Below, piece after piece: positions 35,713 to 43,240 of a stretch of 64,000 nucleotides of DNA. Position numbers and translations under genes: made by a program. How positions within the stretch are numbered: position 1 is the stretch's first letter; every line of letters begins with the position of its first letter. The DNA comes from Actinomycetes bacterium (GTDB lineage: Bacteria; Actinomycetota; Acidimicrobiia; Acidimicrobiales; Palsa-688): contig JAJZMF010000024.1 in the NCBI GenBank assembly GCA_021850325.1, positions 186,001 through 250,000 on the forward strand. The letters run 5' to 3'. The notes below the pieces were generated by a model that was not told the origin of the DNA, searched no databases, and saw only the letters and a program-made list of their open reading frames with translations.

Positions 35713-36113
35713 GCTATTGGCTCGGCTGCGGCGGGCCGGCCTTGAGAGGGTTGTGCCGGTGGTGGCCTTCGTGAACGTCGTCGTGGCTGCTCCCGGGGCC
35801 TGTCGTGGCGGCGGGGGGACAGGTGCTGCGTACGCCGATTTCGGGTTGTGCAGGGTTCGTCTACTCCCTTGGCAGATCGGACGTCAGCGGCACCCGGACG
35901 GAGCGGGGCGCGCGTTGTCGACACTGATTCTGCCCGAGGGGGGCGGCCCGCTGACGGCGCGGACCGCAGTTGGGGCGAGCCTTCAGGCAAGTCTCAGGTT
36001 GAGGGGCCCGGGCCGGGCCGTTCCCTGCTCCGGGCGGCGGGGCCGTCCGGGCGCTAGCGTGCCCGTCTGTAGTGCGGTCCGACGCGGGTAACCGTGAAGG
36101 GCAGGGTGACCCC
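35713..36113. other. 401-base region without a convincing gene
   Basis: Between divergent membrane-protein genes. A GTG-initiated frame at 35717-36091 has no family features and overlaps the control region. TAGCGT at 36055-36060 is a plausible -10 for the rightward gene. No tRNA-like cloverleaf is seen. Confidence 0.5.
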
Positions 36114-37259
36114 ATGGCCTCTTCTGCCTTCCCAGGACCGGGCGGCCGTCCGGGGCAGGGCCGGGAGCGCCGGTCCGGTGGGGCTGGGCCGCGCCCCGCC
36201 GGGGGGCCGGACAGCGAGCCCGCTCGCCGTCGGCGCCGCCACGCCAGCCTGTTCCGGGTGGTCCTCGAGGTGGTCGTCCTCGCCCTGGCGGCGGTCTTCG
36301 TGATCCTGAGGGCGGGGGGCAACGCGGGCAAGGTGGGCGCCGCCTTCTACCACCTGCGCTGGCACTGGCTCATGGTGTCCCTGGCCGCCGAGGCCGTCTC
36401 CCTCACGGCTCTGTCCTGGTTGCAGCAGAAGCTGCTCCGGGTGGGCCGCCTCGAGGTCGGGGTACGCGAGCTGCTGCCGGTGACCATGGCCAGCAATGCG
36501 GTGGCCCAGTCGCTGCCCGCTGGGACCCTCTTTGCCGAGGGGTACGCCTTCCGTCAGTACCAGCGCCTGGGGGCCACCAGGGCGCTCGGCCTGTGGGCAG
36601 AACTGTCGGCGGGGGCGATCGCCTCCGCCGCTCTGGCGGCGGTTGCCGTGGCGGGCGCCGTCGTCGTGGGCTCACCACTGCGCTGGTCGCTGTTGCCGTC
36701 GCTGTCGTTCGTGCTGGCCGGGGCCCTGGTGGCGGTGGCGCTGTTCCGCCGGGCCGACCTGCTCAGCCGGGTGATCGGCGCCGTGCTGGCCCGCCTCGAG
36801 CGCGTCCTGCCCGCCTCGCTGTGCGGCCACCTGCGCGCTGCCGAGCAGGCCACGCGGCGCATGAGCGAGTTCCGGCCGTCTTACGGCCTCTTCGGCGCCT
36901 GCCTGGGAGCTGCGGTGCTCAACTGGGCCATGGACGCCGTGGTCATGCTGATGGGTCTGCTGACGGTGGGCGGCCCGGTCCCCTGGCGGGGCGTCCTGCT
37001 GTCCTACGCGGCGGCGCAGTTGCTCGTCGAGCTGCCGGTCACCCCGGGGGGGCTGGGCCTGGTGGAGGGCGGCCTGGTGGAGGTGCTCACCCGCTTCGGT
37101 GTGCCGGTCACACAGGCCACGGCGGCGACGCTCATGTACCGGGCCGTGAGCTACTGGTCACTCCTGATCGTCGGCTGGGCGGCGGCAGGGTGGCTCACGG
37201 TGCGCAACCGGAGGGCGGACCGCTCGCTGGACGCTGCCGCCAAGGCCACGCCGGCCTGA
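36114..37259 (+). CDS. Flippase-like integral membrane protein (UPF0104/YbhN family)
   Basis: A 381-residue protein of the lysylphosphatidylglycerol-synthase transmembrane family. A disordered basic N-terminus (RRRRRHASLF) precedes about eight membrane helices. Family landmarks are NAVAQSLPAGTLFAEGYAFRQYQ and the C-terminal ELPVTPGGLGLVEGGLVEVLTRFGV. Relatives are proposed lipid flippases or glycolipid transporters; there is no catalytic LPG-synthase domain. ATG 36114 follows CAGGGTGA; GTG 36072 would add 14 residues. It ends 12 bases from the convergent c-di-GMP gene. Confidence 0.82.
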   Translation: MASSAFPGPGGRPGQGRERRSGGAGPRPAGGPDSEPARRRRRHASLFRVVLEVVVLALAAVFVILRAGGNAGKVGAAFYHLRWHWLMVSLAAEAVSLTALSWLQQKLLRVGRLEVGVRELLPVTMASNAVAQSLPAGTLFAEGYAFRQYQRLGATRALGLWAELSAGAIASAALAAVAVAGAVVVGSPLRWSLLPSLSFVLAGALVAVALFRRADLLSRVIGAVLARLERVLPASLCGHLRAAEQATRRMSEFRPSYGLFGACLGAAVLNWAMDAVVMLMGLLTVGGPVPWRGVLLSYAAAQLLVELPVTPGGLGLVEGGLVEVLTRFGVPVTQATAATLMYRAVSYWSLLIVGWAAAGWLTVRNRRADRSLDAAAKATPA

Positions 37260-37271
37260 CAGGCCGCCGCC

Positions 37272-40200
37272 TCAGGCCCGGCCCGGCACGGGGGCGCCCA
37301 CCAGCAGGTCGGTGCCCGCCGCCAGGTCGGCCGGGCGGCGGCTGGCGAGCGGGGCGGGCAGGGCCCGGGTGCCCGCGAGAAGGCGGCGGAGGTCCGCCGC
37401 GGGCAGCGGTACGCAGAACCAGTAGCCCTGGCCGAAGGGGCAGCCGAGCTGGGCCAGGAGGCGCTGCTGGCCCGCTGTCTCGATGCCCTCGGCGACGACG
37501 TCGACCCCCAGGTTGCGGCCGAGCTGCACGATCGTGCGCAGCAGCTCCGCCGATTTGTCGTCCGGGAGGTTGGCGACGAAGCTGCGGTCGACCTTGAGGG
37601 CGTCGATGGGGAGACGGTGCAGGGCTTCGAGGGACGAGTAACCGGTGCCGAAGTCGTCGATGTGGATCTGCAGGCCCCGGTTGTGCAGCTCGTCCAGGAT
37701 CTCGAGTGCCCGGCCCAGGTTGCGCTTGTGCATGAACACGTCCTCGGTGATCTCCAGGCACACCCAGTTGGCCGGGACACCCGTGGCCGAGAGGACCTCG
37801 TCCAACTGGCCCAGCAGGCCCGGCGCCCAGAACTCCCGGTGGGAGAGGTTCAGGTTCATCCTCAGCTGAGGAGGGAGCAGGCCCGCCGCCTTCCACTCGG
37901 CCATCTGGCGGCAGGCCTCCATCTGCACCCAGCGGCCCATGGGCACGACCAGGCCCGACTCTTCCGCCACGGGCAGGAACTCGCTCGGTGGCAGAGGGGC
38001 ACGGTCGGAGCGGGGCCAGCGCACCAGGGCCTCCATGCCCCTAACGGCCCCGGTGGCAAGGTCGACTATGGGCTGGTAGTGCAGTTCGAGGGCGCCGCGC
38101 TCGACGGCCTGGCGCAGGGCGCTCTCGGTCTGCAGGCGGCTGACGGCGCCGGCGTGCATCGACGCGTCGAACTTCATGTGGCCTGCCCGACCGGCCGATT
38201 TGGCCCGGTACATGGCTATGTCCGCGTCCCGCAGGACGTCCTCGGCCTTCTCGTAGGAGCTGGCCCCGCCCGTGATCCCGATGCTCGCGGTGACCACGAC
38301 CTCGTGGGTGCCCAGGACATAGGGCTGGCGCAGCTCGGCCTGCAGCCGCTCGACAACGGCGTCGACGACGTCGAGGCTCGCGATGTCGTGGAGCAGGACG
38401 GCGAACTCGTCGCCGCCGAAGCGCGCCGCCGTGTCGGTCTCCCGCAGGCTGGCGCGCAGGCGGTCGGCTACCCGGCACAGCAACTGGTCGCCCACCAGGT
38501 GGCCGAGGCTGTCGTTGACCAGCTTGAAGCCGTCGAGGTCGAGCCAGAGCACGGCGTAGTCGTACCCCGGCTCCCGCCGGGCATATGCGATGGACTGCGA
38601 AAGCCTGTCCAGGAACAGCGTGCGGTTCGGGAGCCCGGTCAGGGCGTCGAAGAGGGCCTGGCGCAGCAGCTGGTCCTCCAGGGAGCGGCGTGCCGTGACG
38701 TCGGTTAGGGACCCCACCACCCGGGTGGGGCGCCCCTCGGCGCCCAGGACGACCAGGCCCCGGCACAGGGCCCAGCGGTAGGAGCCGTCGGCCGTCCTCA
38801 TCCGGTGCTCCAGCTCGAAGGACGCCGTGGCGTCGCCGGTCCGCCTGCCGATGGCCCTCATGAGGGCCGGCCGGTCATCGGGATGGGCCCGGCCGAACCA
38901 CTCCTGAGGGCTGTCGCCGATGGCGGCGGCCTTGTAGCCGAACATTGCCTTCCAGCGGTCGGAGTAGTAGACGGTGCCAGTGGTGAGGTCCCAGTCCCAC
39001 AGGCCGTCGTTGGCCGCCCGGGCGGCCAGCGCGTAGCGCTCCTCGCTCTGGCGGATGCTGCGGGCCATGTCCCGCTCCCGCTGGTCCGATTCCGCCAGCT
39101 CGCGCTTGCGCTGCTGGACCGAACGGACGGCGCTGTCGAAGTCGAGGGCCTGGCTGATGAGGGCGGACCACTGGGAATAGGTCTCGGCACCGGTCAGGGT
39201 CAGCTCGGCCGGCACCACAAGGGCCAGGTACCCCCAGTCCGAGGTCGCCGTCATGACCGGCAGCAGGAGGGTGACGGGGGTGGCATCCCGAAGAGCGCCC
39301 AGGCTGAGCAGCCCCGCTGGAGGGAACGCCGCCGCCTCATAACGCCTGCCTACCAGGTGGTCGAGCTCACCGGAGCGGTCGTAGGTCCCCACCACCTCCA
39401 GTTCTGCGCCCACTCGTCCGGGGGCCCAGAGCGCCAGGGCCCCGGCGCCGGCCCCGGTGAGCTCCAGCCACTCCAGCGACCGTGGGCCGTGCTGGTCGGT
39501 GCTCAGCAGCTGCATGGTGATCTCGTGCTCGTTGCCGACCTGCTCCCGGAACAGCTTGTTGACCCGCACCTGTTCGAGCGCCCCCGCCCTGGAGATGCCG
39601 GCCGCTACGTGCTGCAGGCAGCGGTCGAGCCGGCGGCGCGCCTCGGGTGAGGCACCCTGCTCCAGCCGGCGCGCCAGGCGGGTGGCCAGGGCCATGGCCC
39701 GCAGGGAGCCGGCCTCGCCGCCAGGCCCGTGCAGCCGGGCCGCGAGCTGGCCGAGCTCCAGGAGCTCCAGGGGGGACGGCTCGGCCTCGACGGCCCTGGT
39801 AAAGCCCGCCGCGATGGCCCGGGCCAGCTCACCCGGGGCGCGTCCCCTCTGGGCTGGGGTGGTGCCGGCGACCAGGCGGGCGGGGCCCTCCGGTGCATGG
39901 GGCCCCGTGCCCTCCGGCGCAGGTGCCTGGAGCGCCCTGACGAACGACCCCACTGCGTCCCCGTCGTCGAGCTCGACGCCCACATCATCGGCGCTGCCGG
40001 CACAACCGCAGCTCTCCCGCACCAACAGCGCGGCGCCGACCGCGAAGCTGTCCTCGGCGACGGTGCCGCCGCTCAGGTAGAGGGCCAGCAGCTCCACGGC
40101 GCGGGCGGCCATCAGGTCGTAGTCCAGGCTCACCGTGGTCAGGGCGGGGTAGCAGAGGGCGGCGCCGGGCGTGTTGTCGAAGCCGACCACGGCCTGGTCC

Positions 40201-40886
40201 CTGGGCAGGCAGAGACCGGCCGCCATCAGTTCGCCGAGCGCTCCCAGGGCGTTGCCATCGGTCGCTGCCACCAGGGCGGTGCTCGGGAGGCCCGCTTCCA
40301 GCATGGCGCGGGCGGCGATCCGTCCGCCGTGCTCACCGTTGTTGGGCGCCACGTACACAAGAGCCGGGCCGGGGTCGATGCCGTGGTCGGCGAGAGCGGC
40401 CCGGTAGCCCGCGAAGCGCTCCCTCACGTCGAACAGCGAGAGGTCGCCGACAAACGCGACCCGGCGGTGGCCGTGCTCCACCACCAGGTGCTCCACAACC
40501 TTGCGTGCCCCGCCGGCGTTGTCGGGCACGACCATGGGGCAGGCGAAGGAAGGGTCAGGGTGGGAGAGGTTGACGACGGGCCTGCCTGCGGAGCGGACGC
40601 GGGCGAGCAGGTCCGGGTCGGCAGAGTCCATCAGGGCGACGAAGCCGTCGGCGGCCTCCCAGGCCACGGGCCATGCCCGGGCAGGCCCGTGGTGGTGCCG
40701 GTCGCGCCAGTCGCCCCGCTGGGTCTGCAGGGCCACGGCGTGCCCGCCGGCGCGCGCCACCGCTGCGGCCACCGCCGATATCAGTCCTCCGAAATATGGC
40801 CCTGCCACGAGGGAGGACAGGATGCCGATCGTGCGTCCCTGCAAACCCTCGTAAACCTGGCGCGCGTCCGTGCTCACCGGTTGCAC
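37272..40886 (-). CDS. LacI-type sensor / PAS / GGDEF / EAL c-di-GMP enzyme
   Basis: A 1204-residue cytosolic protein with no membrane helix. Residues about 17-290 are a LacI/RbsB-type ligand-binding domain without the HTH (GRTIGILSSLVAGPYFGGLI, VVEHLVVEHGHRRVAFVGD, VVGFDNTPGAALCYPALTTVSLD). A GAF-like and coiled-coil region follows, then PAS near 610-735, GGDEF with intact RFGGDEF near 822 and an RETD inhibitory site, and EAL near 950-1180 with MEALVRW, NLNLS, LEITED, IDDFGTG, KVDRSF, VAEGIE and GQGYWF all intact. It could both make and break c-di-GMP under control of a small molecule, probably a sugar. GTG 40886; GATATA lies six bases upstream. Confidence 0.9.
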   Translation of the reverse strand: MQPVSTDARQVYEGLQGRTIGILSSLVAGPYFGGLISAVAAAVARAGGHAVALQTQRGDWRDRHHHGPARAWPVAWEAADGFVALMDSADPDLLARVRSAGRPVVNLSHPDPSFACPMVVPDNAGGARKVVEHLVVEHGHRRVAFVGDLSLFDVRERFAGYRAALADHGIDPGPALVYVAPNNGEHGGRIAARAMLEAGLPSTALVAATDGNALGALGELMAAGLCLPRDQAVVGFDNTPGAALCYPALTTVSLDYDLMAARAVELLALYLSGGTVAEDSFAVGAALLVRESCGCAGSADDVGVELDDGDAVGSFVRALQAPAPEGTGPHAPEGPARLVAGTTPAQRGRAPGELARAIAAGFTRAVEAEPSPLELLELGQLAARLHGPGGEAGSLRAMALATRLARRLEQGASPEARRRLDRCLQHVAAGISRAGALEQVRVNKLFREQVGNEHEITMQLLSTDQHGPRSLEWLELTGAGAGALALWAPGRVGAELEVVGTYDRSGELDHLVGRRYEAAAFPPAGLLSLGALRDATPVTLLLPVMTATSDWGYLALVVPAELTLTGAETYSQWSALISQALDFDSAVRSVQQRKRELAESDQRERDMARSIRQSEERYALAARAANDGLWDWDLTTGTVYYSDRWKAMFGYKAAAIGDSPQEWFGRAHPDDRPALMRAIGRRTGDATASFELEHRMRTADGSYRWALCRGLVVLGAEGRPTRVVGSLTDVTARRSLEDQLLRQALFDALTGLPNRTLFLDRLSQSIAYARREPGYDYAVLWLDLDGFKLVNDSLGHLVGDQLLCRVADRLRASLRETDTAARFGGDEFAVLLHDIASLDVVDAVVERLQAELRQPYVLGTHEVVVTASIGITGGASSYEKAEDVLRDADIAMYRAKSAGRAGHMKFDASMHAGAVSRLQTESALRQAVERGALELHYQPIVDLATGAVRGMEALVRWPRSDRAPLPPSEFLPVAEESGLVVPMGRWVQMEACRQMAEWKAAGLLPPQLRMNLNLSHREFWAPGLLGQLDEVLSATGVPANWVCLEITEDVFMHKRNLGRALEILDELHNRGLQIHIDDFGTGYSSLEALHRLPIDALKVDRSFVANLPDDKSAELLRTIVQLGRNLGVDVVAEGIETAGQQRLLAQLGCPFGQGYWFCVPLPAADLRRLLAGTRALPAPLASRRPADLAAGTDLLVGAPVPGRA

Positions 40887-41075: not shown

Positions 41076-41158
41076 AGACCGTCTGTACGTTCGAAGACCC
41101 ACGACAAGGCCTGTTGGGGCCGCACGACGCCACCGCCGGCCCAGCCCGGGAGCACCCC

Positions 41159-43240
41159 GTGGATGAGCGCGTGACGGCCGGCGGGCCGGGCGGCCAGGAG
41201 GACCTGCCCGGCCGCGCCGAGCCGGCCCTGGCGCTGGTCGACAGGGCGGGCAGGGTCACCTATGTCAGCGATGCCCTGGCGGCTGAGCTGGGCGTGAGGC
41301 CCGGGGAGCTGCTCGGTACCGACGTGTTCCACCTGGTGGCGGAGGGCCAGCGCCCGGCGGCCAGGCAGGCGCTGCGCCGAGCAGAGCGCACGGGCCGGCT
41401 CGGCCGTTCGCTGTGGCGGTTGTCGGCACGTACCGGCCGGGCCGTGGACGTGTCGCTCAGCCCGCAGAGCCTCGTGGGCGGGGGGGAACAACGCCTCTAC
41501 GTGCTGACGGCCGAGGCACCCGGGGAGCTCCCGGTCCACACGGAGCGCCAGGCGCTGCTCGCCGCCATTGCCACCGAGTGCGACGAAGCCATCGTCACCG
41601 TGGCCCCGGGGGGGGTGATCGAGCTGTGGAACCATGCCGCCGAAGACCTCTTCGGCTGGGCGGAGGCCGAAGCCATCGGGTGCCCGGTGAGCATGCTCGT
41701 GCCCCATGAGCACCGCCAGGAGGCGGAAGCGCTGCTCGAGCGGGCATGGGCGGGCGAGGTCGTCAACCGGGTGGAGACGGTCCGCATGTGCAAGCACGGC
41801 TCCCGGGTGGAGGTCTCGGTCAGCTTCGCCCCCCTGCGTGACGGCGCGGGCCGGGTGATCGGCGTCTACCAGGTGGTGCGTGACATAACCCAGCAGAAGG
41901 CCTCCGAGCGGGCGCTCGCCTACCAGGCCCTGCACGACCACCTGACCGGGCTCCCCAATCGGAGCCTGCTCGAGGACCGCATGGCCCACGCCCTCGAGCG
42001 TTGCCGGCGGGAGGGCACCTCGGTGGGGCTGGTCTTCTTCGACCTCGACCACTTCAAGACGGTCAACGACACGGCCGGGCACGAGGTGGGCGACCGGCTC
42101 CTGCGCGCCGTTGCCGCCCGGCTGCGCCAGTCGGTGCGCTCCATGGACACCGTGGCCCGGCTGGGCGGCGACGAGTTCGTCGTGCTCTGCGAGGACATCC
42201 GCGACGACTCGCAGTTGGACGTGATCGTCTCGCACATAATGCGCTCGTTCGCCGAGCCGGTGGTGCTGCCCGACCGTCAGCTGTGGGTGAGCCTGAGCGG
42301 AGGGGTGGTCAAGGGCTGTGCAAGCTCGTCGGTGGCCCAGTTGCTGAGCCAGGCCGACGCAGCCATGTACCAGGCCAAAGAGCGCTCGCGGGGCACCGTG
42401 GGCCGCTACGACCCGCGTACCAGGCCCGCTCTGGAGCGACGGGCCGAGGTGTCCCGGCTGCTGCGCATGGCCCTCGAAGCTCACCAGTTGGTGCCGTACT
42501 ACCAGCCCATCTTCGACCTCCACAACGGGGCCATGGTGAGCCTGGAGGCGCTCGTACGCTGGGAGGACCCGGCCCGGGGCGTGGTCCCGGCGAAGGAGTT
42601 CATACCGCTGGCCGAGGAGCTCGGGCTGGCCGGGGAGATCGGCGAACTGGTGCTCGGAGAGGCTGCCGCCCGGGCCAAGCAGTGGTCCCGCCTGCTCCCG
42701 GGCCTGAAGGTGACCGTCAACGTCTCGCCCAAGCAGTTGCGTGGTGGGAGCCTGCTGCGCAGTGTGCGGTCCCTGGTCGCCCAGGGCCTCGAGCCGGGCT
42801 CGCTGACCCTGGAGGTGACCGAGACGGCCGTGATGGAGGACGCCACGGCCGGCGGGTCGGTGCTGCAGGAGCTGCGGGACTGGGGTTTCGGTATCGCCAT
42901 CGACGACTTCGGGACCGGGTACTCCTCCCTGGCCTACCTGAAGCGCCTCCCGGCCAGCTCGATCAAGGTGGACCAGGCGTTCACCGCCCAGTTGCCCGAC
43001 CCCCAGGACCTGTCCGTGGTCATGGCGATCCTGGCCATCGCCGACTCGTACGGCCTGGAGGTGGTGGCCGAGGGGATCGAGTCGGCGGAGCAGGCCGAGG
43101 TCCTCAAGTCGCTCGGCTGCCAGCACGGCCAGGGTTACCACTTCGGCCGGCCGGTACCCGCCAGCATGGTGGACGAGATGCTGCTCGGCGGCCCCACGCT
43201 GGTCCGCGCCGCCGACAACGGGGCTGCCCACCGGCCCTGA
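41159..43240 (+). CDS. PAS-PAS-GGDEF-EAL c-di-GMP enzyme
   Basis: A 693-residue soluble protein: two PAS domains (PALALVDRAGRVTYVSDALA and ECDEAIVTVAPGGVIELWNHAAEDLFGW), a GGDEF domain with intact ARLGGDEF near 336 and an RSMD inhibitory site, and an EAL domain from about 460 (LEALVRWEDP, TVNVS, EVTETAVM, IDDFGTGYSS, IKVDQAF, VAEGIES, GQGYHFG). All catalytic residues for both activities are present. GTG 41159 follows GGGAG six bases upstream; a TTG at 41114 would add 15 residues. It is transcribed away from the LacI-sensor paralogue, and the two share a 272-base control region. Confidence 0.92.
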   Translation: MDERVTAGGPGGQEDLPGRAEPALALVDRAGRVTYVSDALAAELGVRPGELLGTDVFHLVAEGQRPAARQALRRAERTGRLGRSLWRLSARTGRAVDVSLSPQSLVGGGEQRLYVLTAEAPGELPVHTERQALLAAIATECDEAIVTVAPGGVIELWNHAAEDLFGWAEAEAIGCPVSMLVPHEHRQEAEALLERAWAGEVVNRVETVRMCKHGSRVEVSVSFAPLRDGAGRVIGVYQVVRDITQQKASERALAYQALHDHLTGLPNRSLLEDRMAHALERCRREGTSVGLVFFDLDHFKTVNDTAGHEVGDRLLRAVAARLRQSVRSMDTVARLGGDEFVVLCEDIRDDSQLDVIVSHIMRSFAEPVVLPDRQLWVSLSGGVVKGCASSSVAQLLSQADAAMYQAKERSRGTVGRYDPRTRPALERRAEVSRLLRMALEAHQLVPYYQPIFDLHNGAMVSLEALVRWEDPARGVVPAKEFIPLAEELGLAGEIGELVLGEAAARAKQWSRLLPGLKVTVNVSPKQLRGGSLLRSVRSLVAQGLEPGSLTLEVTETAVMEDATAGGSVLQELRDWGFGIAIDDFGTGYSSLAYLKRLPASSIKVDQAFTAQLPDPQDLSVVMAILAIADSYGLEVVAEGIESAEQAEVLKSLGCQHGQGYHFGRPVPASMVDEMLLGGPTLVRAADNGAAHRP

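Follow-up and report, generated by a model that had tools for sequence, protein, structure and literature searches.

A 1204-aa open reading frame on the minus strand (37272..40886, start GTG) of the 64,000-nucleotide stretch of DNA analysed here (the window) encodes a LacI-type ligand-binding domain (LBD) followed in order by an R-x-S-C-G-C exit motif, a helical stretch, a GAF fold, a PAS domain, a GGDEF domain and an EAL domain, and the protein is probably a cytosolic, ligand-controlled c-di-GMP enzyme. Under this best reading we infer the cytosolic location, the ligand class, the dimer geometry, the direction of regulation and both enzyme activities. The LBD, PAS and GGDEF domains were all kept in 18/18 aligned relatives, indicating that this layout is no chance product, and a fusion artefact of the assembly was rejected given that the architecture is repeated across many genomes and has syntenic orthologues. 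The first-pass annotation had outlined the LBD, PAS, GGDEF and EAL domains correctly but missed the middle ~300 residues, which comprise the helices and the GAF fold.

The LBD spans residues 14-292 (40011..40847, minus strand), as assigned from Pfam, the predicted structure and PDB matches. Pfam placed Peripla_BP_3 at residues 132-293 (9.8e-26) and Peripla_BP_1 at residues 29-238 (7.1e-11), and returned no match to the LacI helix-turn-helix (HTH, PF00356) in the 1204-aa protein; the LBD starts at about residue 14, with no HTH ahead of it, and the open frame continues for only 8 codons upstream of the GTG start. In an AlphaFold2 model of residues 14-612, built from an 18-sequence alignment (pLDDT 82.6), residues 16-295 align with LacI-family LBDs at Z 24-26, confirming at the level of the predicted structure that the first ~290 residues form a LacI-type (type I periplasmic-binding) fold. 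Domain search and structure prediction had been proposed as checks in the first-pass annotation, and their outcome agrees with its description of a LacI-type binding fold lacking the HTH, the N-terminal region being predicted to fold as a periplasmic-binding-like domain.

The fold is shared with LacI/GalR transcription factors (LacI, RbsR, PurR, CcpA and CelR), and the window protein retains their cleft positions R157, D210 and D237, which are invariant or nearly so in the alignment of family members. We take these three to be the ligand-holding positions of LacI, the equivalence being drawn from alignments and general knowledge of the LacI family. D122, N123, Y161 and E185 are likewise conserved, and the conservation of the cleft persists although family members are only ~35-45% identical. 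Unlike the LacI/GalR factors, the window protein has no HTH; its output is enzymatic and joined C-terminally to the LBD, and its exit motif is RxSCGC where RxS/T is the usual ending. Ligands of many types are bound across the LacI family; a sugar or nucleoside that sets c-di-GMP is a plausible candidate here. Instead of a free sugar, the LBD might answer a protein partner or a corepressor-type signal, in the manner of CcpA, which responds to HPr-Ser-P. The strong structural matches do include CcpA, also in complex with HPr, and no sugar operon lies nearby, whereas many sugar-binding members match the LBD equally well, and we regard such partner binding as very unlikely.

No signal peptide or convincing membrane helix was found in the 1204-aa protein by inspection of its sequence and hydropathy. 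The hydropathy maximum of 1.76 (19-mer window) falls at residues 26-44, a segment that forms beta1/alpha1 of the modelled LBD and contains charged residues in paralogues, and was therefore not considered a convincing membrane helix. A periplasmic or membrane-anchored LBD was rejected on these grounds, in keeping with the earlier description of a soluble protein without a membrane helix.

The exit motif, R-E-S-C-G-C in the window protein, occupies residues 290-295 (40002..40019, minus strand), and its R, S, C, G and C are invariant in 18 family members. It was present in 20/20 extended LBDs compared with 6/68 others in a first sample, and in 36/38 extended compared with 3/36 others in a second, motif-blind sample, drawn with a profile ending before the motif. 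Striking as these counts are, the extended architecture changes state only 3 times on the LBD tree, so the motif chiefly reflects common descent and is no proof of function; repeated functional convergence on RxSCGC was rejected for the same reason. DNA-level patterns designed for the exit motif matched few family loci.

Beyond the motif, a helical linker and helical stretch (residues ~296-445; 39552..40001, minus strand) lead into a domain of GAF fold, itself flanked by long helices (residues ~443-590; 39117..39560, minus strand). Pfam gave no match anywhere in this middle region (residues ~296-612), and searching PDB sequences with a middle-region profile returned nothing meaningful. Folding of residues 285-612 alone gave a model (pLDDT 83.2) with helices followed by an alpha/beta domain, for which the best re-aligned chains were GAF domains or GAF-containing phytochrome modules at Z 9-11 over ~105-150 residues, the best single GAF match being DevS GAF-B (Z 11.2); the Foldseek E value for the region is weak (0.03), and the Z scores of 9-11 come from re-alignment. 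The model thus places a GAF fold in the middle region, flanked at either end by long predicted helices, an arrangement known from rod-like dimeric signalling proteins.

Since GAF and PAS folds both lie between the LBD and the enzyme, either could be the main input, which counts against our best reading. The LBD would then serve mainly in dimerisation or scaffolding, possibly with a structural ligand, and the GAF and/or PAS domains would be the true sensors. LacI-type domains do dimerise, and GAF and PAS are established inputs of c-di-GMP enzymes according to the sections considered of a 2022 review on sensory inputs of c-di-GMP signalling (PMC8846402). Against this stand the conserved cleft residues of a family as divergent as this one, and five relatives from other lineages in which PAS is absent while the LBD and GAF are kept. 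We therefore consider a mainly scaffolding or dimerising LBD unlikely, although less so than the protein-partner alternative.

In the preferred reading of a ligand-controlled enzyme, the cleft of the LBD, a domain that has lost its DNA-binding part, would take up a small polar metabolite such as a sugar or nucleoside. In LacI the DNA-binding part sits elsewhere, away from the C-terminal end to which the output is attached here, so that cleft closure would have to be read at the CxC exit strand. The signal may then pass from the R-x-S-C-G-C strand through the helical stretch, the GAF domain and a signalling helix to PAS, and rearrange the GGDEF pair, thereby altering c-di-GMP synthesis. EAL would be an optional second output, through which the window protein could switch between making and degrading c-di-GMP.

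The output half begins with the PAS domain (residues ~615-735; 38682..39044, minus strand; PAS_3 at 639-726, 1.5e-18), present in 18/18 members. It is followed by the GGDEF domain (residues 744-900; 38187..38657, minus strand; Pfam 1.7e-45), with the GGDEF motif at residues 824-828 (38403..38417, minus strand) and an RxxD I-site, RETD, at residues 815-818 (38433..38444, minus strand), five residues ahead of it. The EAL domain (residues 923-1159; 37410..38120, minus strand; Pfam 1.6e-68) has a complete motif set, comprising EAL 952-954, EITE 1045, DDFGTG 1077, K1098, AEGIE 1132 and GQG 1152, as checked by alignment with GGDEF-EAL proteins of solved structure. Both domains look intact, so that the synthesis and breakdown sites reported in the first-pass annotation hold at the level of motifs. 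The GGDEF-EAL half resembles the diguanylate cyclase 5m3c, the motility regulator 4rnh and DosP (9bgv), with E values down to 1e-99 and catalytic motifs present, whereas the input half, an LBD with a GAF domain, is unrelated to theirs.

Tandem GGDEF-EAL proteins often use one activity only, and the complete EAL motif set together with this common dominance of one activity would suit a window protein that works in practice as a phosphodiesterase or as a receptor for c-di-GMP, with a GGDEF domain whose role is confined to regulation, as known from several proteins of this tandem type. The family points the other way. Among 30 relatives, the 28 with a GGDEF domain all keep the GGDEF motif and the I-site (28/28), while the EAL state changes at least 4 times on starred branches of their tree and 6 times by parsimony. 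With GGDEF and I-site invariant and EAL coming and going, GGDEF appears to be the preserved output of the family and EAL optional, and we consider a window protein with a purely regulatory GGDEF rather unlikely, though this is the strongest of the three alternatives. In two family members (L036, 813-4352; L038, 1116-4727), the EAL motifs are degenerate, with EAV for EAL and an altered DDFGTG, and GGDEF is intact.

The group of such sensors is patchily distributed. A paralogue in the same assembly (46% identity) ends after GGDEF, without EAL, and 8/32 genomes of the same taxonomic family carry 1-5 copies. Using the middle-region profile, the LBD-middle module was detected in at least 10/397 genomes of the order and at least 1/396 genomes sampled across the phylum, both counts being lower bounds because up to five candidates were scored per genome. 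Relatives carrying this input module lie both in Dormibacterota and in further actinobacterial lineages. The named genomes with relatives are Centralia_MAG_82, YP4.bin5, Acidimicrobiaceae MAGs, Catellatospora vulcania, an Actinomycetales MAG and a Dormibacterota MAG, the last of which also has the LBD-middle module ahead of a histidine kinase. The protein of C. vulcania (L054), a cultured species, shares the LBD, exit motif, middle module and GGDEF-EAL with the window protein but lacks PAS. The Actinomycetales MAG AS06rmzACSIP_109 (G460) encodes, at locus L207, tandem LBD-middle-PAS-GGDEF proteins, one with EAL and one without, and has at least seven family members.

The combination had been called uncommon in the first-pass annotation. 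This is borne out by the low counts of the LBD-middle module in the order and the phylum sample, and must be qualified in that the architecture recurs in several other lineages, that Chloroflexi-type genomes often encode HTH-less LacI-type sensors with different outputs, and that the c-di-GMP inputs listed in the review already include the domain (PMC8846402). No characterised homologue was found in the open-licence literature searched, and the expectation of rarity is therefore not contradicted by a body of well-characterised homologues. For the pairing of LBD and c-di-GMP domains, or for the exit motif, the same literature yielded that review as the only relevant item; its sections considered here state that the periplasmic-binding-like domain of LacI regulators occurs in c-di-GMP proteins, without a validated role, and that Peripla_BP-type inputs possibly bind solutes including sugars (PMC8846402). 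The domain pair in general is thus on record there, and the window protein belongs to the same class of domain combination, whereas those sections make no mention of the HTH-less clade, the exit motif or the GAF module. A description of the RxSCGC exit motif, the hidden GAF module or this family was likewise not found in the open-licence literature searched. RmcA of Pseudomonas aeruginosa, which senses L-arginine through SBP_bac_3, resembles the window protein in using a substrate-binding fold as a c-di-GMP input, but SBP_bac_3 is another family of the same clan and is described as periplasmic in the part of the review covered, whereas the LBD of the window protein is LacI-type and apparently cytosolic (PMC8846402). 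The sugar and amino-acid inputs named in those sections are CACHE or SBP_bac_3 domains, plus an indirect PTS-linked route (PMC8846402). The amlR-amlE operon of Actinoplanes was rejected as a precedent, given that its LacI regulator is a separate protein encoded beside a transmembrane GGDEF-EAL protein, with no fusion.

Divergently oriented to the 1204-aa gene lies a gene for a 708-aa PAS-PAS-GGDEF-EAL protein (41114..43240, plus strand). The two c-di-GMP genes have a 227-bp upstream region in common and may therefore be co-regulated. The convergent neighbour encodes a flippase-like LPG_synthase_TM protein (36072..37259, plus strand) and remains next to the orthologue in two further genomes, indicating that the locus is old. 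Pfam recognised pdxS, pdxT, yebC, ruvB, a RodZ-like gene and the flippase-like gene among the neighbours; no sugar, nucleoside, transport or catabolic gene that could hint at the ligand was recognised among those scanned. The 3.2-Mb assembly contains 27 GGDEF and 17 EAL matches, a rich c-di-GMP network; two GGDEF-EAL matches (G000:C28:8205-9794 and G000:C32:185917-187146) have one in-frame stop each within the matched segment and are perhaps broken genes or alignment overrun.

On a wider scale, the LBD of the family falls in a clade of 61 of the 161 LBDs sampled (SH-aLRT support 97, quick tree). The position of the window protein was determined in the family tree of 30 relatives, and the larger tree of 161 LBDs was built without its row. 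Within the clade, 56 members have C-terminal extensions, 4 form a group of LacI regulators and 1 is a fragment at a contig end; nearly all have R-x-S-C-G-C at the end of the LBD. The window protein accordingly belongs to a clade of LacI-LBD sensors, nearly all without an HTH, that have an RxSCGC exit and a C-terminal output. Outputs of the members scanned include GGDEF, GGDEF-EAL, HisKA-HATPase with or without receiver and AraC domains, SpoIIE and GAF-STAS, and the presence of several unrelated signalling outputs on one LBD clade is what would be expected of an input module. Among individual loci, an HTH-less LacI-type LBD is fused to a SpoIIE phosphatase in a Myxococcota MAG (L117, 3650-6232) and to GAF-STAS in an Anaerolineae MAG (L071, 921-3728). 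Three loci from Chloroflexi-type MAGs (L061, 3797-7435; L064, 3941-7573; L068, 3746-7330) combine the LBD with a histidine kinase, a receiver and an AraC-type DNA-binding domain in a single chain of ~1200 aa. Plasmid records contained ordinary LacI regulators among the annotated matches listed.

Few cases are documented in which a c-di-GMP enzyme senses a cytosolic metabolite directly, and the window protein is a promising candidate for one that would connect an intracellular metabolite directly to lifestyle signalling; its ligand, if found, would couple nutrient state directly to c-di-GMP. More tentatively, and with the balance of our judgement somewhat against it, this may be an ancient LacI-type clade in which DNA binding was mostly lost and whose members became general cytosolic input modules for c-di-GMP enzymes, histidine kinases, SpoIIE and STAS proteins via RxSCGC, the paired exit cysteines of each protomer possibly forming a metal or redox site between subunits through which ligand closure would be coupled to output. 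If so, intracellular metabolite sensors of an entire class would have escaped notice. The clade provides a delimited group of sensors whose outputs are interchangeable, of use in understanding how one binding fold addresses many enzymes and in designing biosensors.
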